DNA of 64,000 nucleotides. Source: Candidatus Anammoximicrobium sp. (GTDB taxonomy: Bacteria; Planctomycetota; Planctomycetia; Pirellulales; Pirellulaceae). This document shows, piece after piece, positions 8,201-48,813 of the stretch. The translations under genes and the position numbers were made by a program. The notes beneath the pieces were generated by a model, which had not been told where the DNA came from, did not search any database, and saw nothing but the letters and a program-made list of their open reading frames with translations. The stretch is taken from assembly GCA_012515235.1 (NCBI GenBank), contig JAAYYU010000019.1, positions 1 to 64,000 of the forward strand, written 5' to 3'. How positions within the stretch are numbered: the stretch's first letter is position 1; each line of letters opens with the position of its first letter.

Positions 8201-9081
8201 TCGACCGAGTGGGCATCGGAGATCTGTTCCGGAGCGACGTAGTCGGCCGTACCCATCGCTGCACCGGTCTTCGTCATGTCCCCTTGATCCGGCTCCGCAG
8301 GACGCTCGGCATGGAGCAGTGCCAGTCCCAAGTCCAGGATCTTGACTTGCCCGGTTGGCGTGAGTATCACGTTCGAGGGCTTGACATCCCGATGGATCAG
8401 ACCGTTGTCGTGGGCACACTGCAGCCCCAACGCCACCTGACGTGCCAACTCGCAGGCGTCCGGGATCCGCAGGGCCCCGCGATGCCGCACCAGTTCGGCC
8501 AGATTCTTGCCCTCCACGTATTCCATGACCAGAAACCGGGTGCCGTCGATTTCCCGTGCGTCCATGGCGCGAACCAGATGGGGATGATCCACTCGGCCGA
8601 CGGCCTTCATCTCACGCTCGAAGCGAGCGACGCTGCGCGGGTCGGCCATCTGTTCCCGCCTCAGGACTTTCACGGCGACCAGTTTGTCCAGCCGCGTATG
8701 TCGAGCCTTGTAGACCGTCCCCATGCCGCCTTCGCCGAGCTTTTCCAATACCTGGTATTCCGCCAAATCAATTGGTGCTATCGGCTCGTCGGCAGCCTGG
8801 CGGAGCGATGGGTCGCAGGCATTGGCCGCTGTACCGACCAATGCTTGAATCCGCGCGATCGCTGCTTGGTGTTCGGGTTCCGCGCCGTACGAATCTTCCA
8901 TGCGGACCGCTCGCAAGCGGGCGACCAGATCGTCGTCGCCATCGTTCAGCGTCCGCAGTGTGTCCGTGCAACGGGCGCAGGACGCAAGGTGCTCGGAGAC
9001 GGTCTCCGCCACGTCGTCAGGAAGCGTCCCGACCAGGTAGCCAAATAACTCTTCGTGGCTCAGACAACTCGGGTTGGGCAT
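5248..9081 (-). CDS. Serine/threonine protein kinase with N-terminal zinc-finger anti-sigma-like region, TM helix and C-terminal WD40 repeats
   Basis: HLASCARCTDTL (zf-HC2-like), kinase motifs GEGGMGTVYKARH, HRDVKPSNVIL, DLGLAL, hydrophobic segment ALIALTLCGVALLAGTIVL, then many WSPDGRxLA repeats. Confidence 0.92.
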   Translation of the reverse strand: MPNPSCLSHEELFGYLVGTLPDDVAETVSEHLASCARCTDTLRTLNDGDDDLVARLRAVRMEDSYGAEPEHQAAIARIQALVGTAANACDPSLRQAADEPIAPIDLAEYQVLEKLGEGGMGTVYKARHTRLDKLVAVKVLRREQMADPRSVARFEREMKAVGRVDHPHLVRAMDAREIDGTRFLVMEYVEGKNLAELVRHRGALRIPDACELARQVALGLQCAHDNGLIHRDVKPSNVILTPTGQVKILDLGLALLHAERPAEPDQGDMTKTGAAMGTADYVAPEQISDAHSVDIRADIYSLGCTLYTLLAGRPPFAGPQYKNHMDKMAAQLRDAPPSVQVARPDVPPELAAIIERMMAKDPTQRYATAKEVAEALTPFAVGADVARLCIGSDGGLSSIHGRQPSRTGTDPLLSSAMTGTTPDGAAATPLVPILRSEESKGVEQATNAVPATAPSRIRSRPAALIALTLCGVALLAGTIVLRIRDRSGRETVVEVPAGSKATVRPNGEVEVDLSGVQGEIGTKPSAAPDDTGHRVTPPAVAARRQSFPIADEEPSLSLLPRRFETPGVGRWHIDTRSPRSEVRSVSWSPDGRLVACRSLESVLVYEAATCRLVYVFSHRPTECMDAAFSPDGKWLAIRYGDGQVRLWEVESGKAGPVLASRGKDQPSWAWSPDGRHLATHRAGGKVEIWSVDGSLIHSWDCETYDWLCGWSRDGKWLLLIDGGRSVPARLRAPDGKQGPVIEEAGNLANCLNPSNTTWSPDGRYFAAENIRIPQKRSTIFAWDTKTWKLARQSVELETFLLKWAWNPVNQRLVFLDWSEPMKVRSWCIDDNSYEIVEPDWRVRGTWAFSPQGDQIVDIPAQNEIRFWDVGAKSPRSTINAGGSPAFTLLGASPDGQWLATKGASAPNCLLWHGDGRPVPVLPELSDRLTALAWGPGGRLASAHETMVRVWNVNDGELLAQWPRREPAMTILAWSPDGKRLVGSGADKTIDVWDVEESTHVQAVVAHEGSVDQLAWNADGGRFASLSRGDNCVHLWNADATAGPVLNSGEGPARQFAWSPDGQQIAVMPEQGPLQLFDTAGERVLEVGNTSRHFLEWSPDSKWLTTGVDAEGHFHAVQIFGHDAIPRPGPGVFYENVPYEFWRRDRHRWSSNSRWFAVNTPSAIRLWDVEANRFSHDLQGNSRCFAVYWSADSQHLLSFNTDQTLRYWDIGTGRILATTVFLPNDQWARITADGKIETSSAEAEKELVYVVEDPQGAQKIYDVAEFQALVAQQTAGDR

Positions 9082-9892: not shown

Positions 9893-10187
9893 TACACGAC
9901 TCCGCGGGATGATTCACAAAGGGGAAACGGGTTCGGATCGGGGCTTAATCCACTGTTTCGATCTGCTTGTCCAGAATACGTCACACCAGTATACTGTTAA
10001 CTCAATCTAGCCGGCAACAGACGGACGAATCTGGGGAGCGACTTATTCCCGTTCTTTCGACGATTCCGCAAAAGGCTGAAGAAAGATCGCGGGTAGTCAA
10101 TCCGTTGTTCTCGTGAGGCGGAGAGGGATGCAGCACGCGTCGTCCCACCGCCGACACCGAAACCACCTGATACGAAAGGCTGACGTT

Positions 10188-13100
10188 ATGTTTCGCCGGA
10201 CAAAAAACCATCCTTGGAAAAGGTCTCAATTCCTGACGCGTCGCCACCAGCTGGAACACCTGGAGACGCGGCTGATGATGGCCCAGATGGCGTGGGACGG
10301 CGGCGGAGACGGGACGAACTGGACGCACGCACCTAATTGGTCAGGAGACACGTTGCCGGGGGCCAGCGACGATGTGACGATCGACGTGGCCACGAATCCC
10401 ACGATCCGCATTGCCAGCGGTGCCCAGTCGATTCGGAGTCTGGTCAGCAATGAAGCCCTCAATATCACGGGCGGGAGCCTGCGAGTGGCCGACACCGCCG
10501 AAGTCAACAACGCTCTTACGCTCGGCGGCGTCACGCTGTTTGGCGGAACCTGGGACGTTTCCGCGGGAATTCAGGTCACGGGCACGGGGACTTTGGACGG
10601 GACCACGGTCAACAGCAACGTCAGCGTCCAGGAGGCCACTTCATTGACGGTGAAAAACGCCGCGGCGTTGAACGGCGAGTTGACGCTGGGGGCGAATTCA
10701 AACCTGATCGCCGGGGCACAGGTCACGTTGGCGTGTCCGGCGGTGTCAACGTTGGAGAACGTCAATCTGACGGCTACGGATGGTGCGGTGATTCATTGCG
10801 ATTTTGTTCAGACGGTCATAAACGTGAATCTGGCAGCCGGCTCGGGCGGTCAGATCTTGTTTCCCGCAGCCACGAGTTACACGAGTCAGTACATCGGCAA
10901 CCGTGTCGAAGCCAGCGGCGTGGGAAGCAAGATCGGTCTGCCGGCTTTGGCAACCTTTGTGGGCGCAGAAAAAAGCACGAGCCAAACTCAGATTTGGGCG
11001 CACAACGAGGGAGAAGTGGTTCTGGCAGGACAGTTCAGCGGCAACACCACCTGGACACTCGACGCCACCGGCGGGAAATTGGATGTTGCGAACGTGACGA
11101 AATTGGCTGACGCCACGCTTAACGTGAGCGACGGAGCATCGTTGTCGTTTGAACGCGTCACGACGCTCTCCTCGGTGAATCTGAATGCTACGACGGGCGG
11201 GCAGATCCTGTTTCCCGTAGCGACCAGTTACACGAGTCAGTACATCGGCAACCGTATCGAAGCCAGCGGCGTGGGAAGCAAGATCGGTCTGCCGGCTTTG
11301 GCAACCTTTGTGGGCGCAGAAAAAAGCACGAGCCAAACTCAGATTTGGGCGCACAACGAGGGAGAAGTGGTTCTGGCAGGGCAGTTCAAAGACAGAACCG
11401 TGTGGATATTGGAGAACGCCGGGAGCGAATTCGACGTGCGTGGGGTGACCAGCCTCAGCGGCGCGTCCCTCACCGCCGCGAACGGTGCCTCCTGGCTGTT
11501 TCCGGAGGGTTGGGCTCCGGAATTGGGCGCCGGCAATTCGCTGTCCACGAGCGGCGGCGGGAGCTTCATCAATCGGGCGACGCTGGCCATTGCGGGAACG
11601 TCGCTGGCGATCAATACCGATGCGTTCACCAACGAAGGCACGCTGAATCCGCTGGCGGGCGGCGTGTTCGATTTCAACGGCAGCTTTTCCATTGATGATC
11701 CCGGCATCCTCACGTATGTTTCAACCGGTCGCATCTCGGTGGCTGGCGATCTGCTCGGCAGCACGCAGAACGCGGAGCAGTTCGCTCCGCAGGCGGAAGT
11801 TCGCTTCGACGGCGCGGGAAATGACACGAATCCGCAGCGGTGGGAAGCGATGAGCCGCGATCTGGGGCCGTTCGAAAGTGGATTCACCCGCAATTTTGCG
11901 TTTGGAACCGTGAAGCTGGCGAACAACACGTATGTCCGGCTGGTCGACGAATCCAGAAACACGGCCAGCGGCGCAGCCCCGATTGTCGACGAGGCCGTTT
12001 ACGTCGATACGCTCGACGTTCCGGCGGGAACCACGTTGGACTTGAACGGCTTGCACCTGTACGCCCGGACGCTGCAGGGTGACGGTACGATCCTCAACGG
12101 GACGGTACGGACGGACATCACCGACGACGAAATGGCCGACGTGTCGTTGCTCATTACCTGCGATTACCTTGAGCCGAACGTCGGCCAGAACGTTACTTTC
12201 ACCGTGACACTGAGCAACGCCGGCCCCAGCAAGGCCACGGAGGTTGCCGTTGCCGACCTCTTGCCGGCGGGTTTGCGTTTCGTCCGCGACACGAGTTCGC
12301 AAGGGGAGTACAACCCGACCACGGGCGTTTGGTCGGTGGGTACCGTCACCATGGGCTCCTCCGCGACTTTGCAGATCGCCGCGGAAGTCACCGGCACCGG
12401 CACGATCACCAACACCGCCGAAGTGACGGGCGCCGACCAGCCAGATCCCGACTCGACGCCCGGCAACCACGACCCCGACGAAGACGACCAAAGCAGCGTC
12501 ATCTTGGAACCACAGGTCGCCGACCTTTCGCTGGTCAAGACCTGCAATGACGGCACGCCGTTCCTGGACCAGAACGTGACTTTCACCGTGACCCTGGAGA
12601 ACGCCGGCCCCAGCGAGGCCACGGGGATCGTAGTCACCGACCTCTTGCCGGTGGCGCTGCGTTTCGTCAGCGCCACGAGTTCGCAGGGCACTCACAGCCC
12701 GGTCGCCGGCATATGGTCCGTAGGCACGGTCGCCGTCAACTCCAGCGCCACGCTGCAGATCGTCGCGACCGTTACCGGCACCGGCACCATCATCAACACG
12801 GCCGAGGTAACGGCGGCCAACCAGCACGATCCCGACTCAACGCCTAACAACCGCGAGCCCAGCGAAGACGACCAAAGCAGCGCCAAAATCGAGGTGGTGC
12901 ATTCGCACCCCTGGCGCAATCCCGCGCAGGCCGAGGATGTGAACGGCGACGGTCTGGTGACACCTCTGGACGTGCTGATCATGATCAACCGGCTCAATGC
13001 GTCCGGCCCAGGCGACTTGCCCGTCCCGCTCCCGGTCGATGTAAATCCACCACCGTACTGGGATGTCGATGGCGACGACGCGGTCAGCGCGTCGGATGTG

Positions 13101-13325
13101 TTGGCGGTCGTCAACTTCATCAACAATCACGCAGCCTCTGGGCTGGCTGCGTCGGAGGGCGAAGCGAATGCCGACGCAGGTCTGACGACGAACAGCCCCA
13201 TCGAAACGTCGCCGTTCGCGCCACAGCATCTACCATTGGCCGCCGGGCAGGCCAGCCGGGATAAAGACGCCGTCCTGGTCGATCAGGTGTTCACCGAATT
13301 GGCCGAAGGTAACCTGCATGCCTGA
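10188..13325 (+). CDS. Large secreted/surface protein with autotransporter-like repeats, two DUF11 domains and a C-terminal dockerin-like domain
   Basis: Start at ATG 10188 (ORF opens at 10113). Planctomycete-type N-terminus RRHQLEHLETRLMMA; two ~120-aa repeats NVTFTVTLxNAGPSxATxxxVxDLLP...NTAEVT; EF-hand/dockerin-like DVNGDGLVTPLDVLIMINRLN and DVDGDDAVSASDVLAVVNFIN. Confidence 0.88.
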   Translation: MFRRTKNHPWKRSQFLTRRHQLEHLETRLMMAQMAWDGGGDGTNWTHAPNWSGDTLPGASDDVTIDVATNPTIRIASGAQSIRSLVSNEALNITGGSLRVADTAEVNNALTLGGVTLFGGTWDVSAGIQVTGTGTLDGTTVNSNVSVQEATSLTVKNAAALNGELTLGANSNLIAGAQVTLACPAVSTLENVNLTATDGAVIHCDFVQTVINVNLAAGSGGQILFPAATSYTSQYIGNRVEASGVGSKIGLPALATFVGAEKSTSQTQIWAHNEGEVVLAGQFSGNTTWTLDATGGKLDVANVTKLADATLNVSDGASLSFERVTTLSSVNLNATTGGQILFPVATSYTSQYIGNRIEASGVGSKIGLPALATFVGAEKSTSQTQIWAHNEGEVVLAGQFKDRTVWILENAGSEFDVRGVTSLSGASLTAANGASWLFPEGWAPELGAGNSLSTSGGGSFINRATLAIAGTSLAINTDAFTNEGTLNPLAGGVFDFNGSFSIDDPGILTYVSTGRISVAGDLLGSTQNAEQFAPQAEVRFDGAGNDTNPQRWEAMSRDLGPFESGFTRNFAFGTVKLANNTYVRLVDESRNTASGAAPIVDEAVYVDTLDVPAGTTLDLNGLHLYARTLQGDGTILNGTVRTDITDDEMADVSLLITCDYLEPNVGQNVTFTVTLSNAGPSKATEVAVADLLPAGLRFVRDTSSQGEYNPTTGVWSVGTVTMGSSATLQIAAEVTGTGTITNTAEVTGADQPDPDSTPGNHDPDEDDQSSVILEPQVADLSLVKTCNDGTPFLDQNVTFTVTLENAGPSEATGIVVTDLLPVALRFVSATSSQGTHSPVAGIWSVGTVAVNSSATLQIVATVTGTGTIINTAEVTAANQHDPDSTPNNREPSEDDQSSAKIEVVHSHPWRNPAQAEDVNGDGLVTPLDVLIMINRLNASGPGDLPVPLPVDVNPPPYWDVDGDDAVSASDVLAVVNFINNHAASGLAASEGEANADAGLTTNSPIETSPFAPQHLPLAAGQASRDKDAVLVDQVFTELAEGNLHA
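10851..11376 (+). repeat. Internal near-identical ~175-bp direct repeat (period 351 bp) within the dockerin protein gene
   Basis: cagatcYtgtttcccg...gtggttctggcagg at about 10851-11030 and 11202-11381 differ at only a few positions (e.g. AATSYTSQYIGNRVEASG vs VATSYTSQYIGNRIEASG). Confidence 0.9.
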
Positions 13326-32952: not shown

Positions 32953-34377
32953 TCAGTCCAGTCTGGATGCCTCCCGGCCCTCCCCGTTCCATCGGTGCTC
33001 GAATTCCGTCATCGTCTCCGGCCCCCGATGCCGCCGTTCCCAGGATGCTTGCCACAGCGAATACGCGCCGGACAGCACGACGCCCAAACCGCCGGCCAGC
33101 AGCAGGACGCCGGGCGGGACGGAAGCCGCGGCCAGGACCATCCCGGCAGCCGAAGCGAGCAATCGGATCGCACCGTTCAGGAACACCATCACGCCCATAT
33201 AGCGGCTGGTGTCCTCGCCGGGCGGAGCGAAGTAGGTGACCCCGACCTGCCACCACATGATCCACCAAGCCCCCTGGACGCTGCCGCGGAGAAGCCGGCC
33301 CAGCACGGGCAGCGCGACCAACGCCGGCGGGAACACGGCGGCGCACACCGGCGTAGCAGCCAGGAGGATCGCGTCCAGGCCCCAGAGCCCCCGAATCCAG
33401 GACCAGGAAATCCACGGATTGGTGCGGTCCAGAACACGGCCCAAGGCCCCCGTGGCAGCAAACGCCGCCAACGCCGGGACCGCGTGCATCAGAACACTGC
33501 AGCCCACGTAGCCGAACCCCAAATCGCGACTCAAAAACACCCAAATCAGCGGCAAATAGAGCATTTGGCAGAAGCCGTCCAGGAAACAGCCCAGCAGATA
33601 ACGGCGAAAGCGGCCGTTGCCGGCGGTCAGCACCCTCAACGCCTCGCGAAAACTGCTGCCGATGCCCCGCGGCAGATCGCAGCGGCGGATGCTCAAGTCC
33701 TCCTCCACCCGAATCTGACGAAAACAGAGGAAGCTGGCCAGATTCAATAACCCTGCCAGGACCATCAGCATCTGGGCCATGTGGTCGGCGGACCATTGCA
33801 AACCGCCGCCTCCCAGCAACCCCGGTTCGACGCCGCTGGCCGGGCGGGCGTGCCCGGCTCCCCAATGCAACAGCCAGGCCGACAAAACGCTGGAAACCAC
33901 AAACGCCAGCGACGACCACTTCCGGACTTCGCCCACGGCATGCCCCCGGTGATCGACCGGATAATTGAGCCGCAGGATCGAGGTGATCGCGGGCCGGGCG
34001 ATGATTTCCAGCATCGCCCCAAATCCCAGCAGCGTCAGAAACCAGAACGCGCTGCCGGTCGCGGCCGCCATGCTAACGGAACAGATGCCCGCCAAGACGC
34101 CGGGGATGAAGACAAAGGGCATCTTGGCCCGCCGGGCCATCCGGACGCCCAGATACAGACTGGCGATCATCCCGATGCCCGCGAATAGCTCGCGCAGCGG
34201 CAAATGCCAATTCGCCGCCTGGAAGGCTTTGATCGCCACGATGGGCGCGTTCAGCAGAATGCCCCCCGCCGTCGCGTCCAACAGCGCGTAACCCAAGTGC
34301 AGTCGGAACGTCCGCCGAGCGTTGCCCGACAAGGGCGGACCGCAAAAGAACTCGACGGCAACGCTTCGCCTGGCCAT
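32953..34377 (-). CDS. MFS transporter
   Basis: 474-aa multi-TM protein with MFS-type pattern; 6 bp downstream of arsR. Confidence 0.75.
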   Translation of the reverse strand: MARRSVAVEFFCGPPLSGNARRTFRLHLGYALLDATAGGILLNAPIVAIKAFQAANWHLPLRELFAGIGMIASLYLGVRMARRAKMPFVFIPGVLAGICSVSMAAATGSAFWFLTLLGFGAMLEIIARPAITSILRLNYPVDHRGHAVGEVRKWSSLAFVVSSVLSAWLLHWGAGHARPASGVEPGLLGGGGLQWSADHMAQMLMVLAGLLNLASFLCFRQIRVEEDLSIRRCDLPRGIGSSFREALRVLTAGNGRFRRYLLGCFLDGFCQMLYLPLIWVFLSRDLGFGYVGCSVLMHAVPALAAFAATGALGRVLDRTNPWISWSWIRGLWGLDAILLAATPVCAAVFPPALVALPVLGRLLRGSVQGAWWIMWWQVGVTYFAPPGEDTSRYMGVMVFLNGAIRLLASAAGMVLAAASVPPGVLLLAGGLGVVLSGAYSLWQASWERRHRGPETMTEFEHRWNGEGREASRLD

Positions 34378-34383
34378 GCTCGG

Positions 34384-34794
34384 TTATCCTTGCGAGTGAC
34401 TCGCCGGCACCGAAGCCGAAGCCGGCTCCCGCTGCCCTCGTCTTCGCTGGGCTTCCCGAATGACCGTCGCTCGCTCGCGTTCCTGCTCCGAATGCTCGCC
34501 GGAAATCAGCCGGATCAGTTGCTTGACGAGCGTCGGCTTGAGGATGTAGTAGCAGCGCAAAGAACCATTGACGTAGCGCTCGATCAGCCGCGCCTCGCGA
34601 AGCGCCGCGATGTGCTGGGACAGGTGCGGCTGAGGAATGTCGATCAGGCCGTTGATGTCCGTTACGCAGCGAGGCCCTTCGCAAAGAGACTCCAGGATCA
34701 TCAGACGCACCGGATGGGCCATCGTGCGCAGCAGGCGAGCCCGCTGCTCCCAGGACCCAAGTGCGGGTTCGTTGTCAGGGGATTCTTCCTTCAT
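34384..34794 (-). CDS. ArsR/SmtB family transcriptional regulator
   Basis: RTMAHPVRLMILESLCEGPRCVTDINGLIDIPQPHLSQHIAALREARLIERYVNGSLRCYYI winged helix; start at MKEESP (34794). Confidence 0.9.
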   Translation of the reverse strand: MKEESPDNEPALGSWEQRARLLRTMAHPVRLMILESLCEGPRCVTDINGLIDIPQPHLSQHIAALREARLIERYVNGSLRCYYILKPTLVKQLIRLISGEHSEQERERATVIREAQRRRGQREPASASVPASHSQG

Positions 34795-34901: not shown

Positions 34902-36071
34902 TCATCCGGATGCCGGTTGGCCCGCTTCGGCTGCGGCCGGCGTACCCATGGACGCAGCCCTGCGCTTGACAGCCGCCAGGTACATCGCCAAGGGGCGGTA
35001 GATCAAGTGCATCCACTTGCCGATCCCCACCTCGACATCCAGCATGGCGACCATGGCCATCACGTGAACCAGGTACATGCCGTACGTGGGCCAAGGCCAT
35101 CCGGCGTATCGAAACACGTGCACCAAAATCCCCGTCACGGCACCGGTCAAGATGAAGCCAGGAAACAGCCAATCGCTCAACTGGGAGTGCTTGTGGACGG
35201 GTTCCCGCTTGCGGAATCGTCCCACCAGCATCGCCACGGAGCCGTAGATCAACGCCAAAGTCGCAACATAACCAAGCCAACGCTGCGGATGATACAGGGG
35301 GTAGATCGCGTCGGTCTGAAACCAGCCCAGCAATCCGACGATCAGTACGAGCATCGTCAGATACCCGGAAACCAGCACCAGATGCTGGACCCACTGACCG
35401 ACGTGACGCGGGCCGCAATCCCGCCATCGTTTCTGGGTGAAGAAATGGAGCAGCAGGGTTTTCCATTCCGCCAGATAAGCGGCGAGCGGAATGGTGGTCG
35501 GACTGGCCCCGGCCCCCAACACAAACCGGCTCATCGTCCACGCGCCGGACATCACGCGATATCCCAGAAAGACGAAATGGATCAACACCGCGGCCCAGAC
35601 CCACATCACGGGCGCAAATCGGTTCAATTCCACCCGCTCAGTGACGATCCAGCGAAAACCGGTCCAGAGATGGAACACGGCGAGCAGCACCAACGGAATC
35701 ATGCCCCGTGCCAGAATCGAGAGCCAGAGCCGTTGCGGCGAGGTATACAGCCGTCGGCCAAGCCCCGAACGGTCGTAGTGCGCGGTCAGCCAGCGACGCA
35801 CGCCCATCATGATCTCACCCGGGTCCGCCTGCCGCGGACAGGTCTCCGTGCACTCGCCACAGTAGTAGCAGAGCCAGGGTTCGGGCGACTCCAGAAGCTT
35901 GTCCTTCAAGCCCAGTTGCACGTAGCGGATGGTCTTTCGCGGAAAGACCGTGTCGCCTTGGGACAACGCGCAGACGGCGGTGCAGTTGCCGCAGTTGACG
36001 CATTGCATGATGTCGCTCGCACCGAAAGCGGCCAACTCGCGATGGAATTCAGGATCAACCGTTCGACTCAC
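34902..36071 (-). CDS. QmoC-like fusion: HdrC-type 4Fe-4S domain plus HdrE/NarI-like cytochrome b membrane domain
   Basis: CVNCGNCTAVCALSQ and CYYCGECTETCPRQADPGEIM, then about 6 TM helices with His residues. GTG start at 36071 overlapping the upstream stop (GTGA). Confidence 0.85.
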   Translation of the reverse strand: MSRTVDPEFHRELAAFGASDIMQCVNCGNCTAVCALSQGDTVFPRKTIRYVQLGLKDKLLESPEPWLCYYCGECTETCPRQADPGEIMMGVRRWLTAHYDRSGLGRRLYTSPQRLWLSILARGMIPLVLLAVFHLWTGFRWIVTERVELNRFAPVMWVWAAVLIHFVFLGYRVMSGAWTMSRFVLGAGASPTTIPLAAYLAEWKTLLLHFFTQKRWRDCGPRHVGQWVQHLVLVSGYLTMLVLIVGLLGWFQTDAIYPLYHPQRWLGYVATLALIYGSVAMLVGRFRKREPVHKHSQLSDWLFPGFILTGAVTGILVHVFRYAGWPWPTYGMYLVHVMAMVAMLDVEVGIGKWMHLIYRPLAMYLAAVKRRAASMGTPAAAEAGQPASG

Positions 36072-36394
36072 GATCTCGTCTCCTTGTGCGGGGCTTCCTG
36101 CACCAGGGCATACTCGAAGTAGTCCCCCTGCTGCTGGCCCTCGACCAACTTGCCGTATTTTTTCATGCTCATCAGGTGCCAAAGCGTCTCGTGGGGCGGC
36201 AGGTTCGCCTGCGCGGCGATCTGCGGCACGGTCTTGGGGCCGCTCTTGAGCGCGTCGACGATTCGCCGCCGGTCCGCCGCTTGCCGCCGATTGCGCTCGA
36301 CCAGTTCCCGTGGCACGCCTCCCCGCCGCTGTCGCAGAATCGCGATCGGCTTTTCTACTTTCACGGCGTCCTGGTTCTGGGCCGTCTCTGACAT
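36068..36394 (-). CDS. Small winged-helix-like protein inside the Hdr/Qmo-like operon
   Basis: RRRIVDALKSGPKTVPQIAAQANLPPHETLWHLMSMKKYGKLVEGQQQGDYFEYAL looks wHTH-like; start MSETAQ (36394). Confidence 0.65.
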   Translation of the reverse strand: MSETAQNQDAVKVEKPIAILRQRRGGVPRELVERNRRQAADRRRIVDALKSGPKTVPQIAAQANLPPHETLWHLMSMKKYGKLVEGQQQGDYFEYALVQEAPHKETRS

Positions 36395-36548
36395 GGCTTT
36401 CTCCTCACGCGGCCGTGGACTGCAACCGATCGTAGGCCGCTCGCGGAGCGAACGGCCTACGGTCATGCGTGCACGGCAGGCACCTCATCCGAACGGTAAC
36501 TCAGACCAAGGCAACCCGGCGGGCTCACGCCCGCCGTTCCCCCGGTCG

Positions 36549-38633
36549 CTACACCTCCTCCGCCGCCAACGCATCGACCATGGCCTCGAATTGATCCAGT
36601 CGCCAACCGGCCACCTGGATCGCGCCGGTCGGGCACACCGGGACGCATATCCCGCAGCCGTTGCACAGCGCCGAGTTGACCTGCGCCACGGTCACCGTTT
36701 GGCCGTCCCGCTGCGATTCGACTAACTGGACGGCCCGCTGGTAAGCGCAAGCCTCCACGCATTTGCCGTGGCCCCGGCAGCGGTCCGGATCAACGCGTGC
36801 GCGGAACGGATCGAGTTGGATCGTTCCCTGGGAAAACAACGCGGAAGCCTTCGCTGCCGCGGCTCCGGCGGCTGCGCAACTTTCCTGAATGTCCATCGGC
36901 GCCTGGCAGGTGCCGGCCACGAAGACCGCCCCGACGGCCATCTCCACCGGCCGCAGTTTCGGGTGAACCTCCTGCAAAAATCCGTCCTCGCTGCGGGCGA
37001 TTTTCAGCTGTCCGATAAGGCTTTCGATATCGCGGGGGACCATCCCGGTCGCAAGCACCACCAGATCGGCCGGGACATCCAACTCTTCGCCGAAGGTGAG
37101 CAGGTCTTTGACGCGCACGGTGAGGGCGGGCCCGTCGGCCTGCGTGCCCGCAGCGACGGAAGGCGGTTGCTCGCCGGCATACCGCAGGAAGATCACCCCG
37201 CGCCGCGACGCCTCCGTGTAGTACTCCTCCTGACCGCGCCCGTAAGTGCGGATGTCCTGGTGCAGGTCGAAGACGTTCACTTCGGGGAACCGCCGCCGCA
37301 CTTCGATCGCCGCGCGCAGCGACGCCGTACAGCAAACGCGGGAACAATGGGCATTGATCTTGCCGTTCGGACCCGGCGGATGAACGCCTTCGATCTGCCG
37401 GCTGCCGACGCAGTGAATCAGGCAAACGTTGCGGACCGGACGGCCCTGGTACTCCAAATGGCCTTTTGTCGGGCCGTCGGGGTCCAGGAGCCGCTCGAAT
37501 TCCGCCAGCGTCACGACCTGGGGAAAATGCCGGTACCCGAATTCGCCGTCGGCCGGCTGATAGGGATCAAATCCCGTGGCCAAGACGATCGCCCCCGTGG
37601 CCAGGTCCAGGTGCGTCTCGATGCTGTCGAGCGAAATGCCCTGACCGCCGACCGCCATCCGGCATTGCCCACAGCGCGTACACGCGTTCCAGTCAATGGC
37701 CGGCATCGCGGGCCGACAATTCGTGTAAGGACGATAGATGGCTTTCCGCTCGGCCAACCCGAAATCGAATTCGGAGGGAACACGAACCGGACAGGCTGCC
37801 ATCGCGGCCTCCATTTCGGCCGGCCCCAGATCCTCGACGCCCCGCGGCTTGACCCGGACGCGCAACTGGAAATTCCCGATACAGCCCGAGGCCTCGACGA
37901 TCTCCGCCTGCGTGTGGACCGTGACGTTCGGATCGGCGAGGACGGCCTCCGCAAGCTGCGTCACAAGATCGCGCGCTCGAACCTCGCTGGGGTACACCTG
38001 GTGCCACTGACTTACCCTGCCGCCCAGAAAGGGAGAACGCTCCAGCAGCGTGACCGCCAGCCCCAGACGCGACAAGTCCCGTGCGGCCCGCAAACCGCTG
38101 ACTCCGCCGCCGACGACCGTCACATGGCGGGTTGCCTGCATGGTGATCGCCGAGAGCGGTTCCAGCTTTCTTGCCTTGGCGATTCCTGCGGCCACCAGCC
38201 GGATCGCCTTGTCGGTGGCGGCCTGCGGATCGGAGGCGGTACACCAACTGACCTGTTCGCGCACGTTGACCGGCTCGTACAAGTAGGGATTCAGATCGGC
38301 CCGGATTGCAGCGGCGCGAAACGTGTGCTCGTGCAGGCTTGGCGTACAGGCGGCAATCACAATCCGGTTCAGCTTCTCCCGCTGGATGTCTTCGATCAGC
38401 AGATTCTGGCCGCCTTGGGAACACATGGCGGAGTAGTGCCGGGCAACGGCGACGCCGGGCAAACGAGCGGCCGCCTGCGCGACGCGTTCCACATCGACCA
38501 CGTCCGAAATGTTGCCGCCGCAATGACACACGTACACGCCAACTCGGGGAGCGTCTGTCTGAGCAACGCCGGAGACGGCCTCCGCAACACCGGCCAGGGC
38601 GTCCTTCTCGTTTCGGGCAGGGATTGCTTCCAT
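36549..38633 (-). CDS. HdrA-like FAD/4Fe-4S protein, long form
   Basis: VGVYVCHCGGNISDVVDVE start; FAD motif VVGGGVSGLRAARDLSRLGL; HCVGSRQ; two C-terminal ferredoxin motifs CRGHGKCVEACAY and CNGCGICVPVCPTGAI. Confidence 0.88.
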   Translation of the reverse strand: MEAIPARNEKDALAGVAEAVSGVAQTDAPRVGVYVCHCGGNISDVVDVERVAQAAARLPGVAVARHYSAMCSQGGQNLLIEDIQREKLNRIVIAACTPSLHEHTFRAAAIRADLNPYLYEPVNVREQVSWCTASDPQAATDKAIRLVAAGIAKARKLEPLSAITMQATRHVTVVGGGVSGLRAARDLSRLGLAVTLLERSPFLGGRVSQWHQVYPSEVRARDLVTQLAEAVLADPNVTVHTQAEIVEASGCIGNFQLRVRVKPRGVEDLGPAEMEAAMAACPVRVPSEFDFGLAERKAIYRPYTNCRPAMPAIDWNACTRCGQCRMAVGGQGISLDSIETHLDLATGAIVLATGFDPYQPADGEFGYRHFPQVVTLAEFERLLDPDGPTKGHLEYQGRPVRNVCLIHCVGSRQIEGVHPPGPNGKINAHCSRVCCTASLRAAIEVRRRFPEVNVFDLHQDIRTYGRGQEEYYTEASRRGVIFLRYAGEQPPSVAAGTQADGPALTVRVKDLLTFGEELDVPADLVVLATGMVPRDIESLIGQLKIARSEDGFLQEVHPKLRPVEMAVGAVFVAGTCQAPMDIQESCAAAGAAAAKASALFSQGTIQLDPFRARVDPDRCRGHGKCVEACAYQRAVQLVESQRDGQTVTVAQVNSALCNGCGICVPVCPTGAIQVAGWRLDQFEAMVDALAAEEV

Positions 38634-38638
38634 CGTGG

Positions 38639-39988
38639 TCAGACTCCAGCAGCCAAGGCGGGTTGGGGGACCGGAACGGCCGCGGCCGGCGGCGTCGGAG
38701 AGGATCGGCGGGCGCGGAGATAGGCGGCGGCTTCCGCGGCCGCGGCCCCCGCCTCCACCACGGCATCGGGGATGTCCTTCGGTCCGGCCGCCGCGCCGGC
38801 CACGAAAACGCCCTCCTCCCAAGTTTGAGTGGGCGCGAACGCCGACGGAGCACAACGCAGAAATCCGTCCTCGGCCGGCGCCGCCAAACCGGCCTCGCGC
38901 GGGTCCCAGCCCGGCACCAGCCCCAGCGCCAGAACGACCATGTCGTGCCGGCGTTCTTCCACGCGGCCGTCCTCCTCCAGCACCTCGATGCGCACCACCG
39001 GGTTCTCCTCGTCATCTTCGTCGATCCGCGCGACCTTGGCCTTGACGAATTGAATCCCCATTGCCTTGGCATTCTGGTAGAACTGCTCGAAGCCCTTACC
39101 AAAGGCGCGGATGTCCATGTGATAGATCGTCACGTCGGCCAGCGGCAGCGCCCCGGCCAGCAACATCGCCTGCTTGATCGCATACATGCAGCAAACCCGC
39201 GAGCAAGAGGCCACCCCTTTGCTCAAGTCCCGCGATCCGGCGCACTGCACGTAGGCGATGGATTCCGGGACCTTGCCGTCAGAGGGACGCAGCACGCGGC
39301 CGTACGGACCGTGCGGCGCCAGCAGGCGTTCGGCTTGCAGGGCCGTCAGGACGTTGCGCAGCGGCCCGGAGCCGTAATGCTGCTTGAAGTCCGCGGGCAG
39401 CATCTCGTAGCCGGTCGCGACGATGATCGCCCCGGCCCGCATCTGGACGGTTTGCGGCTGCTGCAAGTAATCGATCGCTCCCACCGGGCAAGCTTTTTCG
39501 CAACGGCCGCACAACAGGCAGTTGTCCATGTCCAGCACGGCGACCTGGGGAACGGCGTTGCCGAACGGAACATAAACCGCCTTGCGGGCGCCGAATCCGC
39601 CCTCGAACTCGTGCGGCAACTCGACGTCGCAAGCGTACTCGCACAACCGGCAGCCGGTACACGTCTCCTCGTTGACGTACCGCGGCTTCTTGAGCACGTC
39701 GACAAGGAAACCCGAGCCCTCGCGCTGGACGCGCTGAACCTCGGCGTAGGTGAGCGTCGTGATGTTCGCGTGGTGCTCCGCTTCGGCCATCCGCGGCGTG
39801 CAAATACAGGAACAACAATCGAGGGTGGGAAAGACCTTGCTCAAGCCGATCATCTTCCCGCCGATGCTCGGCTGCCGCTCCACCACGGCAACGCGCAGGC
39901 CCAGGTTCCCCAGGTCGATCGCCGCCTGGAGGCCGGCAATGCCTCCGCCGATCACGAGCACGTCTACGGTACTTGCTTGTTGAATCAT
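38639..39988 (-). CDS. HdrA/QmoA-like FAD/4Fe-4S protein, short form
   Basis: VIGGGIAGLQAAIDLGNLGLRVAVVERQPSIGGKM; FPTLDCCSCICTPRM; CTGCRLCEYACDV and CLLCGRCEKACPVGAI; QCAGSRD. Confidence 0.88.
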   Translation of the reverse strand: MIQQASTVDVLVIGGGIAGLQAAIDLGNLGLRVAVVERQPSIGGKMIGLSKVFPTLDCCSCICTPRMAEAEHHANITTLTYAEVQRVQREGSGFLVDVLKKPRYVNEETCTGCRLCEYACDVELPHEFEGGFGARKAVYVPFGNAVPQVAVLDMDNCLLCGRCEKACPVGAIDYLQQPQTVQMRAGAIIVATGYEMLPADFKQHYGSGPLRNVLTALQAERLLAPHGPYGRVLRPSDGKVPESIAYVQCAGSRDLSKGVASCSRVCCMYAIKQAMLLAGALPLADVTIYHMDIRAFGKGFEQFYQNAKAMGIQFVKAKVARIDEDDEENPVVRIEVLEEDGRVEERRHDMVVLALGLVPGWDPREAGLAAPAEDGFLRCAPSAFAPTQTWEEGVFVAGAAAGPKDIPDAVVEAGAAAAEAAAYLRARRSSPTPPAAAVPVPQPALAAGV

Positions 39989-40078
39989 CGTTGCTCGTCG
40001 CTGTCTGAAGTCTGGATGTGCGAAAGAAAGCCCGATCGTCGGGATGCTGGCGAAGGGCTTTGTCTCCGCCTGGGCAAC

Positions 40079-40501
40079 TCACCCCGCGACGGCGCCCGCC
40101 AGCGGCAGGTTCGCCAGCATTTCATTCATCTGCTGGACCTCTTTGAGAAACGCTTTCGAACAGACCGTACAGACGGCACACAGCCGCAGACGCTGGGTGT
40201 CCAGACCCTGTTCGGCCATCCGTTTGTGCGTCCGGGCGATCCGCGCGGAGAGCGTCTGGTACGCGCCGGGGTAGGGGCATTCATGCCCGCAACTCATCAC
40301 GAGAATCCCGCCGATGCCCTTCTCGAAAGATCGCAGATAGAACGACTCTGGAAACATCGCCGGGGCGGGCACCTTGAGGATATAGGTGTTGGCCGGGTAC
40401 TCCTGGTGAATCTGGCCCACGTTGTCTGCGCCGGGATAGGCGCACTCGCTCGTCGCCAGAATCAGAATCTTCGGAGTCCCGCCGGACGGGTTCGCTGGCA
40501 T
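40079..40501 (-). CDS. MvhD/FlpD-like hydrogenase iron-sulfur (delta) subunit
   Basis: CAYPGADNVGQIHQEYPANTYILKVPAPAMF; SCGHECPYPGAYQTLSARI; LCAVCTVCSKAFLKEVQQMN. Confidence 0.82.
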   Translation of the reverse strand: MPANPSGGTPKILILATSECAYPGADNVGQIHQEYPANTYILKVPAPAMFPESFYLRSFEKGIGGILVMSCGHECPYPGAYQTLSARIARTHKRMAEQGLDTQRLRLCAVCTVCSKAFLKEVQQMNEMLANLPLAGAVAG

Positions 40502-40517
40502 GACTCGCATCCTCGCT

Positions 40518-40772
40518 TTACTTTCGCCGAGTGATGAAAATCCGGTCGTACCCTTCACCGGCCAGCGAGCCAAGAAATTCGTGCCCTACCTTGGCCGCCC
40601 ATTTCGGCAGGTCGTTCTTGGTCGAAGCATCGCCCGACCAGACCTCGATGGTCTGCCCTACAGACACGCTGCCAATCGCCTTCTTGGCCTCCAATAACGG
40701 CCCCGGGCAGGCCGAACCTCGAGCGTCCACAACTTTGGCAGCCTGAACCGCACTTAAATCGATCGAACTCAT
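40518..40772 (-). CDS. tusA: TusA-family sulfurtransferase
   Basis: VVDARGSACPGPLLEAKKAIGSVSVGQTIEVWSGDASTKNDLPKWAAKVGHEFLG: TusA/SirA CPxP motif and fold pattern. Confidence 0.9.
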   Translation of the reverse strand: MSSIDLSAVQAAKVVDARGSACPGPLLEAKKAIGSVSVGQTIEVWSGDASTKNDLPKWAAKVGHEFLGSLAGEGYDRIFITRRK

Positions 40773-40802
40773 GATGGATCTCCTTGATGTTCCTGAATTG
40801 GA

Positions 40803-41171
40803 TTAGCAAAACGTGAGCACCACGTCGGCTTCTTCCGCCAACGACACGAACTCGGCGATGCCGCCATACTCGACGCCCTCAATGAAGTCGTCGCCCTTGA
40901 TGCCAAGGATCGGGAAAGCGGCGGAACAGGCGATGAAACGCGCGCCATTTTCTTTGGCGATTTGGAGGAACTCCGGCAGCGTTTTGGGGGCGCCCGGCAG
41001 CTGAATTCTCTCGGCGTATCCCCGACGGATAATATTCAGTCCGCTGAGCGTGAAAAACAACGTCAGCTCCATGTCCATAGCCTGTGCGCCGCATCCTAAC
41101 ATAAAGGGAGGAAACGACTTGCTGGGATCGTCCGAGCCGCAGAACACGAGCATCTTCTTGTTGTTTTCCAT
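40803..41171 (-). CDS. DsrE/DsrF-like (DsrE2-type) sulfur-relay family protein
   Basis: MLVFCGSDDPSKSFPPFMLGCGAQAMDMELTLFFTLSGLNII; FIACSAAFPILGIKGDDFIEGVEYGG. Confidence 0.8.
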   Translation of the reverse strand: MENNKKMLVFCGSDDPSKSFPPFMLGCGAQAMDMELTLFFTLSGLNIIRRGYAERIQLPGAPKTLPEFLQIAKENGARFIACSAAFPILGIKGDDFIEGVEYGGIAEFVSLAEEADVVLTFC

Positions 41172-41242
41172 CAACCCCCCCAAATCCTTTCCCGGTTGTA
41201 CAGGTGCGTTTCGAAACGGGTCTTGTCTAGATCGTCAGCAAG

Positions 41243-41271
41243 ACTATAAAGTCGCCACTATATTATGTCAA
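41243..41271 (-). promoter_or_regulatory. Sigma70-type promoter of the DsrE-TusA-MvhD-Hdr operon
   Basis: Minus strand TTGACA (41271-41266), 17-nt spacer, TATAGT (41248-41243), upstream of the DsrE ATG at 41171. Confidence 0.75.
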
Positions 41272-41281
41272 TATGATATAG
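41258..41281. promoter_or_regulatory. Operator-like palindrome overlapping the -35 box, candidate ArsR-family site
   Basis: CTATATTATGTCAATATGATATAG (imperfect 24-bp palindrome) in an otherwise GC-rich region. Confidence 0.6.
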
Positions 41282-45801: not shown

Positions 45802-48800
45802 ATGACGTTCATGGGTGCTACTTGTTCGCGTCGGCTGACGTGTGGGTTGTTGGCCTTGGCTGCCGCCGGCCTGTTGTCTCCCGGCAAGCCATTGGCCGAT
45901 GATGGCGTGGTTCGCATCGGCGACCGGGAGTTGTCGGCCGTAGCGATTGGCCGACAGGTGGCAGGCTTGGTCGAAGCGGACTGGATCGATCAGGACGAGG
46001 CGTTCCGCGCGGAGGCAGCCCAGCCGCCGACTCCGACTCCGGCCTCAGTCGTCGCGCTCGGCGTCCTCACCTGGCAGGACGCCGCCGGAGGTTGCGACGG
46101 GGTAAAGACGGGCCGTTGCGGGTTCCACACGGCCAGCAACGAGACCGACCCGTGGTGGCAGGTCGACTTGGGCCGGCCCTGTTTGTTGGACCGGGTCGTG
46201 GTGTTCAACCGCACTGACGGCGCGACGGCGGCGCGGACGCGCAACCTGCGCGTGCTTGTGGCCGACCGCGTCGAGGAGCCGGAATTCGTCGAGGTCTACC
46301 GGCACAACGGCGAGACGTTCTACGGCGTGCGCGAGCAGCGGCCCTTGACGGTCGATTTCCGCGCCCGAGGCGTGACGGCCCGCGTGGTGCGCGTGGCCGT
46401 GCTCGGCCGGTGTTCCTTGGCCCTGGACGAAGTCGAGGTCTACGAGCAGGAGAAACCGGATGTCAACCTGGCCTTGGGCAAGCCCGCCGATCAGAAGAGC
46501 GTCGGGACCGCTTCCCGTGCCGAGCCCGGAGCCAAGCCGTGGGGTTCGCGGCCCGAGCCGCTCGAGGCAACCGCACCGCCGGAGACGGAGGCCTTTTCCC
46601 TCGCTCACACCCGCGCCGTGATCGGCCGCGCGGAGGCCCTCGCCGCGCGGTTCGGCCGGTTCGGCGGCGCATCGGCGCGGCTCGCGCAGCTGCGGGACCA
46701 GTTGCGGCAGGCTGACGAGCGCCGCGCGAAGTTCGCACAAGCCGGTGCCGTTGCGGAAGAGGTGCGCCGCCAGTTGTACCTGGACGCGCGCCGCATCCTG
46801 CGGCAAATCGCCTTCTGCCATCCGCTGCTGGATTTCGACAAGCTCCTGTTCATCAAGCGGCACGATCCAGGCGGCTTGTATCACATGGTTCATCAGTTCT
46901 ACGGCTTCGGCGCCAAGTCCGGCGGCGGCCTGTTTGTGCTGTGCGATCCGTTTTCCGACGAGCCAAAGCTGGTCGACGTGCTGCAGCAGGCGGTGATTCA
47001 AGACGGCCGACTGGCCGGCAGCCGCTTGGAACCCGGCAGCTTCCTGTCGCCCGACTTGTCCTTCGACGGGCGGACGATCCTGTTCGCCTATACCGAGGGC
47101 AGGGCCGAAGGGATCGAATGGTCGCCACGCGCCAGCTATCACATTTTCCGAGTGGGCGTGGACGGCACGCGGCTGACGCAACTGACGGACGGCGCCTGGA
47201 ACGAGTTCGATCCCTGCTGGCTGCCCAACGGCCGGATCGCGTTCATTTCGGAACGTCGCGGCGGCTACCTCCGCTGCGGCGGTTCCGCGCCCCCGTACGA
47301 TTCGCCGACCTACACGTTGTACTCGATGGTCGCCGACGGCAGCGGCATGACGTGCCTGAGCTTTCACGAAACGCAGGAGTGGCAGCCGAGCGTCGATCAC
47401 AACGGCATGATCGTCTACACGCGGTGGGACTACGTGGACCGCGACACGAACGTGGCGCATCACGTCTGGAGTTGCTTTCCCGACGGCCGCGATCCGCGCA
47501 GCTATCACGGCAACTATCCCGTCAAGCGGGAGACCCGGCCGTGGATGGAGATGGACGTGCGGGCCGTGCCGGGGTCGAACAAGTACGTGGCGACCGCCGC
47601 CGCCCACCACGGGCACGCCTTCGGTTCGCTGGTGCTGATCGACTACCGGCCCCTGGACGACGGCGCGATGTCCCAGGTCGAGCGGCTGACGCCGGACGTG
47701 CCGCTGCCCGAATCCGAAGGCGGCAAAAAGACGATCCGGCAGCACATGGCCTACGGCACCGCCTGGCCGCTGAGCGAAGAGGACTACCTGTGCGTCTACG
47801 ACCGGCGTGCCGCCAACCGTGGCATCTACTGGATCGATCGCTCTGGCAACCGGGAACTGCTGTATCGCGATCCGGAGATCTCCTGCCTGAGCCCGATCCC
47901 GTTGCGGTCCCGTCCCTGCCCGCCTGCGGTCCCGGACCGTACGGGACAGACGGCGGACAGCCCGAATGTGCCAACTGGCGAGGCGCTAGGCACGATCGCC
48001 GTGACGAACGTCTACGACAGCGATTTCCACTGGCCCGAAGGCACCGAAGTCGCCGCCCTGCGCGTGATCCAAGTGCTGCCCAAGACCACGCCGCCAGTCG
48101 ATCAGCCCCGGATCGGGGCCGCGACGGAAACGAACGCCCGCGCCGTGCTGGGCACGGTCCCGGTCGAACCGGACGGCAGCGCGTACTTCGAGGCTCCGGT
48201 CGGCAAGTTGATCTACTTCCAGGCCCTGGACCGCCGCGGCTTGGCCGTCCAGTCGATGCGCTCCGGCACGTACGTTCATCCGGGCGAAACGCTCGTGTGC
48301 CAAGGCTGCCACGAGCCCAAGCACCGGCCGCCGGCGGCCAACCGCGGCATCGCCCTGGCGTTGCAGCGGCCGCCCTCGAAGCTCCAACCCGAGCTCGACG
48401 GCTCGAACCCGTTCAACTATCCCCGGCTGGTTCAAGGCGTGCTCGACCGCCACTGCGTCGAATGTCACCGCCAGCGCAAGGCGATCGACTTGTCCGGCGC
48501 GCCCGGCGCCAAGCACGGTTGGACGCGGTCCTACGAGAACCTGGCGCCCAAATACGGCTTCTACTTCACGGTTTCCAACGGCACGATCAACTCCGGCGTC
48601 CACGGCGGCAGCCGCACCACGCCCGGCCGCTTCGGCGCCCGCGCCGCCCCGCTGCTGCCCTATCTGGATGAACGCCACTACGGCGTGCGGCTCTCGGACG
48701 ACGACTTCCACCGCCTGACGCTCTGGCTGGACTGCAACTCCGAATTCTACGGCGCCTACCACGATCCCCTCGCCCAAGCCCGCGGCTCCGTCGTCACGCC

Positions 48801-48813
48801 GCAGCTGGACTGA
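45802..48813 (+). CDS. HzsA-related protein: F5/8 type C-like N-terminus, beta-propeller-like middle and two CxxCH haem-binding motifs
   Basis: DPWWQVDLGRPCLLDRVVVFNRTDGATAARTRNLRV (discoidin-like); GRIAFISERRGGYLRCG; VCQGCHEPKH and HCVECHRQR. Confidence 0.82.
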   Translation: MTFMGATCSRRLTCGLLALAAAGLLSPGKPLADDGVVRIGDRELSAVAIGRQVAGLVEADWIDQDEAFRAEAAQPPTPTPASVVALGVLTWQDAAGGCDGVKTGRCGFHTASNETDPWWQVDLGRPCLLDRVVVFNRTDGATAARTRNLRVLVADRVEEPEFVEVYRHNGETFYGVREQRPLTVDFRARGVTARVVRVAVLGRCSLALDEVEVYEQEKPDVNLALGKPADQKSVGTASRAEPGAKPWGSRPEPLEATAPPETEAFSLAHTRAVIGRAEALAARFGRFGGASARLAQLRDQLRQADERRAKFAQAGAVAEEVRRQLYLDARRILRQIAFCHPLLDFDKLLFIKRHDPGGLYHMVHQFYGFGAKSGGGLFVLCDPFSDEPKLVDVLQQAVIQDGRLAGSRLEPGSFLSPDLSFDGRTILFAYTEGRAEGIEWSPRASYHIFRVGVDGTRLTQLTDGAWNEFDPCWLPNGRIAFISERRGGYLRCGGSAPPYDSPTYTLYSMVADGSGMTCLSFHETQEWQPSVDHNGMIVYTRWDYVDRDTNVAHHVWSCFPDGRDPRSYHGNYPVKRETRPWMEMDVRAVPGSNKYVATAAAHHGHAFGSLVLIDYRPLDDGAMSQVERLTPDVPLPESEGGKKTIRQHMAYGTAWPLSEEDYLCVYDRRAANRGIYWIDRSGNRELLYRDPEISCLSPIPLRSRPCPPAVPDRTGQTADSPNVPTGEALGTIAVTNVYDSDFHWPEGTEVAALRVIQVLPKTTPPVDQPRIGAATETNARAVLGTVPVEPDGSAYFEAPVGKLIYFQALDRRGLAVQSMRSGTYVHPGETLVCQGCHEPKHRPPAANRGIALALQRPPSKLQPELDGSNPFNYPRLVQGVLDRHCVECHRQRKAIDLSGAPGAKHGWTRSYENLAPKYGFYFTVSNGTINSGVHGGSRTTPGRFGARAAPLLPYLDERHYGVRLSDDDFHRLTLWLDCNSEFYGAYHDPLAQARGSVVTPQLD

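Follow-up and report, generated by a model that had tools for sequence, protein, structure and literature searches.

TusA carries sulfane sulfur in other sulfur systems, and the CCG subunit is the catalytic type in both Hdr and sHdr. The sHdr system is defined by the gene order hdrC1B1A-hyp-hdrC2B2 (PMC12345210), and the YTD cluster consists of yedE-tusA-dsrE-chp and is devoid of HdrA, MvhD and QmoC (PMC12998232). The accessible text of a further report (PMC10504309, ISME J 2023) describes type II Qmo as a QmoC together with QmoAB proteins closer to HdrA, found with or without Dsr/Apr and reported in some sulfate reducers, and calls its function unclear. Here we describe an operon in a 64,000-nucleotide (nt) stretch of Candidatus Anammoximicrobium sp. 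(contig JAAYYU010000019.1 of assembly GCA_012515235.1; hereafter the window), which comprises seven minus-strand genes in the order dsrE-tusA-mvhD-hdrA1-hdrA2-wHTH-qmoC, followed by an ArsR-family gene. Judging from sequence comparisons, the operon may encode, at a rough probability of 0.5, a Qmo-like membrane complex distinct from the QmoABC linked to adenosine 5′-phosphosulfate (APS) reductase, dedicated to protein-bound sulfane sulfur, quinone-linked and oxidative in this organism.

Profile matches (Pfam, NCBIfam) bear out the seven same-strand genes and their order as given in the preliminary description, which was made from the window alone; neither AprAB nor a CCG (HdrB) subunit lies within the operon, again as stated there. 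The gene starts below were refined from alignments and DNA, and that of HdrA2 is approximate (~38633). Lengths are in amino acids (aa).

40803..41171, minus strand: DsrE2-like sulfur carrier (Pfam DrsE_2 PF13686, E = 2.9e-23; DsrE, E = 6.5e-11)
40518..40772, minus strand: TusA sulfur carrier (PF01206, E = 1.6e-18; CPGP motif with Cys22)
40079..40510, minus strand: MvhD/FlpD-like subunit (FlpD PF02662, E = 1.4e-19)
38639..39988, minus strand: HdrA1, an HdrA/QmoA-like flavoprotein of 449 aa (NCBIfam model HdrA2, 468 bits)
36549..~38633, minus strand: HdrA2, an HdrA-type flavoprotein of ~694 aa (NCBIfam model HdrA2, 592 bits)
36068..36394, minus strand: small winged-helix (wHTH) protein of 108 aa (HTH_20, 24 bits, slightly under the cut-off)
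34902..36071, minus strand: QmoC-like membrane subunit (NF038018, 200.6 bits; cut-off 300)
34384..34794, minus strand: ArsR-family regulator (HTH_metalloreg, 63 bits; BigR and TsoR models below cut-off)

Comparison of related loci gives good support to a conserved module in which TusA is kept together with a modified MvhD, two HdrA flavoproteins, the wHTH protein and a QmoC-type subunit, often accompanied by DsrE as a further carrier. Scanning a genome collection with HdrA1 as the sole query gave 80 loci at 57-82% identity, at which the other operon genes were mapped by tblastn and open reading frame (ORF) clustering; the linkage counts take only loci with enough flanking sequence and, the loci having been selected by HdrA1 similarity, describe the HdrA1 orthologous clade. 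The loci span about ten bacterial phyla, their record titles naming Planctomycetota, Acidobacteriota, Krumholzibacteriota, Desulfobacterota, Myxococcota, Chloroflexota, Armatimonadota, Actinomycetota, Elusimicrobiota and a few others. TusA (67/67), MvhD (73/73) and HdrA2 (69/69) are linked without exception, the wHTH protein and a QmoC or HdrC-like protein are each linked in 64 of 65 loci, and DsrE is nearby in 39 of 44; across the loci counted, the core genes all lie on the same strand. Since the gene order is kept across about ten phyla, chance grouping is excluded. HdrA1 and HdrA2 are naturally fused at one locus (L082). The preliminary description was right about the genes present and about the linkage to tusA, but the set is widely conserved and not peculiar to one organism, and its MvhD is a modified rather than an ordinary one. 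Within the order of the source organism, a close HdrA1 orthologue is found in only two of 200 genomes, the source genome and G557 (one copy 82% and a second 58% identical to that of the window), and the distribution is therefore patchy. G557 holds two divergent copies of the operon (loci L162 and L163).

The operon MvhD has gained an invariant C-x-x-C motif (ICTVC type) at Cys135/138 (79/79 sequences; numbering of the 164-aa ORF), whereas most of its canonical [2Fe-2S] ligands have eroded across the family and are kept only in part (Cys44 in 40/79, Cys95 in 41/79 and Cys99 in 58/79). Ordinary MvhD and the QmoB C-terminus retain the canonical cysteines, and sequence comparison found the C-x-x-C motif in neither. 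An AlphaFold2 model of the operon MvhD (predicted local distance difference test score, pLDDT, 85) matches the MvhD of 5odh/5odc (Foldseek template-modelling scores 0.83-0.85, target-normalised), and the C-x-x-C sits between its last strand and last helix, where we regard it as a putative thiol/persulfide site. The carrier cysteines of TusA and DsrE are likewise conserved: TusA Cys22 is invariant in 75/75 sequences, and in DsrE, which starts at the first ATG of its ORF, the cysteines of the FCGSD and ACSAAFPI motifs are both invariant in 16/16 close relatives.

HdrA1 spans positions 139-562 of the 777 in the NCBIfam model HdrA2, matches HdrA in the PDB with E down to 2.9e-120, and has a flavin adenine dinucleotide motif and two 4Fe-4S motifs without the N-terminal and C-terminal HdrA domains. 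The operon HdrA2 spans positions 1-643 of the same model (PDB HdrA match, E = 5.9e-141) and has an N-terminal Cys domain and a C-terminal dicluster ferredoxin domain. In a tree of 92 HdrA/QmoA/QmoB proteins (28 operon HdrA1, 28 operon HdrA2, 10 AprAB-linked QmoA, 9 QmoB and 15 HdrABC-type HdrA), built by a quick method with Shimodaira-Hasegawa-like approximate likelihood ratio test (SH-aLRT) support only, operon HdrA1 and operon HdrA2 form one clade each (support 100), apart from both AprAB-linked QmoA/QmoB and HdrABC-type HdrA; in this tree, which holds no type II reference sequences, the two lie nearer HdrA than type I QmoA/QmoB. In one Desulfobacterales metagenome-assembled genome the operon is immediately followed by a second, very divergent HdrA-HdrA-QmoC-like set (locus L092, 10481-14181), whose long branches have no reliable placement in the HdrA tree.

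No aprA match at E<=1e-20 was obtained in 39 of the 53 operon-bearing genomes searched (the source genome and 38 of the 52 others); 13 of the 53, mainly Desulfobacterota, have aprA above the family cut-off. The aprA loci examined have their own canonical-type QmoA/QmoB, which belong to other clades, and lie on contigs that differ in length from the operon contig. At AprA-adjacent Qmo loci, neither TusA nor a free MvhD gave a match above 45 bits. In one genome of the same phylum (G171) the operon coexists with an apr-qmo locus: the former lies on contig C48, the latter, aprA together with a canonical-type qmoABC, on contig C23. The preliminary description had envisaged two ways in which it might fail, namely a standard Qmo locus with aprAB nearby but outside the window, or HdrA-like proteins from an unrelated clade lacking linkage to tusA. 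Instead, the whole source genome lacks an aprA match, and the HdrA proteins form clades of their own in which tusA is retained; these clades, together with the absence of aprAB and of the sHdr gene order, uphold its claim that the operon matches neither canonical QmoABC-AprAB nor sHdr.

The QmoC-like protein consists of an HdrC-type domain with two 4Fe-4S motifs and about six hydrophobic transmembrane segments, and is full-length (positions 2-358 of the 360 in NF038018) though it scores under the cut-off. Its eight ligand cysteines are invariant, as are H230 and H355 (59/59), and H336 is conserved in 57/59 (389-aa numbering). Most loci encode a full-length QmoC; in about eleven Desulfobacterota loci its place is taken by an HdrC-like protein of 100 aa, with a CCG protein encoded next, a swap that resembles the variation between QmoABC and QmoAB-HdrBC set out in the accessible text of PMC10504309.

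The GTG start of qmoC overlaps the TGA stop of the wHTH gene by 4 nt in the window, and the same overlap occurs in 33/66 loci, thereby pointing to translational coupling of the two genes. The membership of the wHTH gene in the operon had been recognised before; its near constancy (64/65) and the overlap in half the loci go beyond that claim. Its AlphaFold2 model (pLDDT 85) has a winged-helix fold. Co-expressed with the complex, the protein is less likely to act as an independent repressor of the operon than as an accessory factor or a local regulator. We considered and rejected DsrD as a relative: the list of 25 families for the 54 members does not include it, and Foldseek returned only general ArsR/MarR-type winged helices. 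The ArsR gene follows qmoC in close-relative loci (L048, L050, L051 and L052) and elsewhere stands ahead of dsrE; its product has two invariant cysteines (9/9) and probably senses thiol or sulfur for the operon. Beginning 6 nt past the ArsR gene is a gene for a predicted multi-pass membrane protein, major facilitator superfamily-like by eye (32953-34377, minus strand), which is possibly cotranscribed with the sulfur operon.

Within the source genome, the operon TusA is the sole TusA-family match, the CCG proteins are all on contigs other than that of the operon, and a separate HdrA accompanied by HdrB/HdrC-like genes lies on contig C295. The ATP-sulfurylase model PF01747, which does not cover CysDN-type enzymes, finds no match there. 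The one siroheme reductase, encoded by one ORF of 742 aa that matches NIR_SIR twice, is read as assimilatory and not as DsrAB. A haem-copper oxidase is present, as it is in 29/53 operon genomes overall.

In the mechanism that we propose, DsrE and TusA would carry sulfane sulfur, as TusA does elsewhere, and would bind to the modified MvhD; there the C-x-x-C would stand in for the usual [2Fe-2S] electron port and provide a contact point for thiol or persulfide. An HdrA1-HdrA2 heterodimer would exchange electrons with this site through its flavins and clusters, and would be connected via the two QmoC 4Fe-4S clusters, and probably haem, to (mena)quinone. In the oxidative step, a thiol or sulfide would be converted to a persulfide with the loss of two electrons, loading TusA with sulfane sulfur and reducing quinone; this direction is favoured in the source organism because a haem-copper oxidase is present. 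We infer the carrier docking, C-x-x-C chemistry, direction, haem content, wHTH role and substrate. Bolder, and held only tentatively, is the generalisation that the operon encodes a hitherto uncharacterised respiratory complex in about ten phyla, a TusA-persulfide (or sulfide):quinone oxidoreductase in which the [2Fe-2S] of MvhD is swapped for a C-x-x-C exchange site and the outlets are interchangeable (QmoC to quinone; HdrC and CCG in some sulfate reducers). In favour of the proposed complex are the linkage of its genes, HdrA clades apart from those of AprAB-linked Qmo, the operon genomes without an aprA match, the invariant carrier cysteines, the altered MvhD, the HdrA1-HdrA2 fusion, the architecture of QmoC and a sulfur-related setting, namely YeeE/YedE and a second TusA downstream of the operon in Chloroflexota, and in the source genome YeeE-rhodanese transporters adjoining an octahaem tetrathionate-reductase-family cytochrome and a metallo-β-lactamase-rhodanese protein. 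Several points weigh against a quinone-linked, oxidative complex. No haem-copper oxidase was found in 24/53 operon genomes, and the direction is not fixed by sequence; the form with QmoC has no CCG subunit, the catalytic type of Hdr/sHdr; the QmoC-like protein falls below the NCBIfam qmoC cut-off; the C-x-x-C may ligate a metal instead; and the function of the complex and the docking of TusA/DsrE remain predictions.

The same complex might run in reverse and serve as an electron sink under anaerobic conditions, with quinol reducing TusA-bound persulfide to sulfide; the persulfide would derive from thiosulfate, polysulfide or elemental sulfur that the cell imports. Such a role would suit the Desulfobacterota and the 24 of 53 genomes that gave no oxidase match, as well as the YeeE/YedE importer (Sulf_transp) and second TusA (TusA2) downstream of the operon in Chloroflexota and the CCG disulfide-type subunit that replaces QmoC in some Desulfobacterota. 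We nevertheless consider it rather unlikely, given the oxidase in the remaining 29 genomes, that of the source organism included, and a source genome without aprA and PF01747 matches. An sHdr-like system that oxidises sulfane sulfur fully to sulfite in the cytoplasm, with QmoC replacing the sHdr electron outlet, would account for TusA and DsrE, which are typical sHdr companions, and for the HdrA-type flavoprotein in common, but is improbable: the defining gene order is absent (PMC12345210), the QmoC form has no HdrB/CCG subunit, and the genes that recur next to the loci include none recognised as LbpA-like.

Slimmer still are the chances of a redox-sensing or assimilatory sulfur-supply module, in which the complex and the wHTH protein would tune sulfur transfer to the quinone redox state and take no part in energy metabolism. 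The constant position of the wHTH gene (64/65 loci) and the ArsR or LysR genes close to many loci are what such a module would have, whereas so large an outlay on a pair of flavoproteins, numerous clusters and a membrane subunit is not, and the survey of recurring neighbours recognised no biosynthetic gene beside the operon. Strongly disfavoured is an ordinary Qmo locus with added sulfur carriers, a variant whose partner would still be APS reductase or some other APS/sulfite enzyme. It would fit the QmoA/B/C-like subunit set and the type II Qmo reported in some sulfate reducers (accessible text of PMC10504309), but not the 39 of 53 operon genomes, including the source, without an aprA match, nor the separate QmoA/QmoB of the aprA loci examined.

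Contamination of the genome bin (7.57%) was rejected as the origin of the operon, as tetranucleotide profile and GC content place the window with the main contigs; among the sampled contigs only C110 and C350 stand apart in composition. The kin of the operon and of one flanking gene are found in a different family of the order, so the operon was likely acquired by horizontal transfer. Elsewhere in the source genome, an ArsR gene, an octahaem tetrathionate-reductase-family cytochrome c, a cytochrome b561 and a split YeeE-rhodanese transporter are clustered (L188; contig C131:39000-51000), and a metallo-β-lactamase-fold/rhodanese protein adjoins a YeeE-type Sulf_transp protein that matches rhodanese three times (L189; contig C331:3000-15000), the latter cluster likely handling persulfide. 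The window also contains a 1003-aa ORF (45802-48813, plus strand) with a match to the middle domain of hydrazine synthase alpha (PF18582, E = 2.8e-20), which has paralogues on contigs C325, C415, C299 and C403; within the order, other families also have matches, but none of the same-family genomes listed does. A Ser/Thr kinase fused to WD40 repeats is encoded at 5248-9081 (minus strand), and near it lies an ORF with DUF11 repeats and a dockerin match (10113-13325, plus strand).

If the proposal of a quinone-linked complex for sulfane sulfur is true, energy-linked sulfur metabolism would extend to many bacteria that are not regarded as sulfur oxidisers or reducers, in which it would have been overlooked because the standard markers (apr, dsr, sox and sHdr) miss this operon. 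The conserved operon and its invariant C-x-x-C provide a clear marker for the system. We found no description of the operon in the open-access literature; subscription papers and supplements were outside the search, and a prior description is possible.

Compared with methanogen HdrABC-MvhAGD, the operon shares HdrA and MvhD homologues and the MvhD fold, but has no hydrogenase or HdrB and has altered MvhD ligands. With the YTD cluster it shares TusA and DsrE, plus the YeeE/YedE neighbour at Chloroflexota loci; the gene content otherwise differs, and the Sulf_transp genes of the source genome lie on contigs C131 and C331. Its TusA/DsrE carriers and HdrA-type protein recall sHdr, from which it departs in lacking the hdrC1B1A-hyp-hdrC2B2 order and a CCG subunit and in having a QmoC membrane subunit instead. 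Type I QmoABC resembles it in its pair of HdrA-like flavoproteins, its MvhD-type domain and its QmoC-type iron-sulfur/membrane subunit, but its MvhD domain is fused to QmoB with intact ligands, whereas that of the operon is encoded separately with an altered cysteine pattern; the operon further differs in the added TusA, DsrE and wHTH genes, the lack of aprAB, the other HdrA clades and a QmoC under the curated cut-off. The accessible description of type II Qmo makes no mention of linkage to TusA, MvhD, DsrE or wHTH (PMC10504309). By that description, and by comparison without reference sequences, type II Qmo comes closest among the published categories, and the operon may supply a concrete context for these functionally open proteins.

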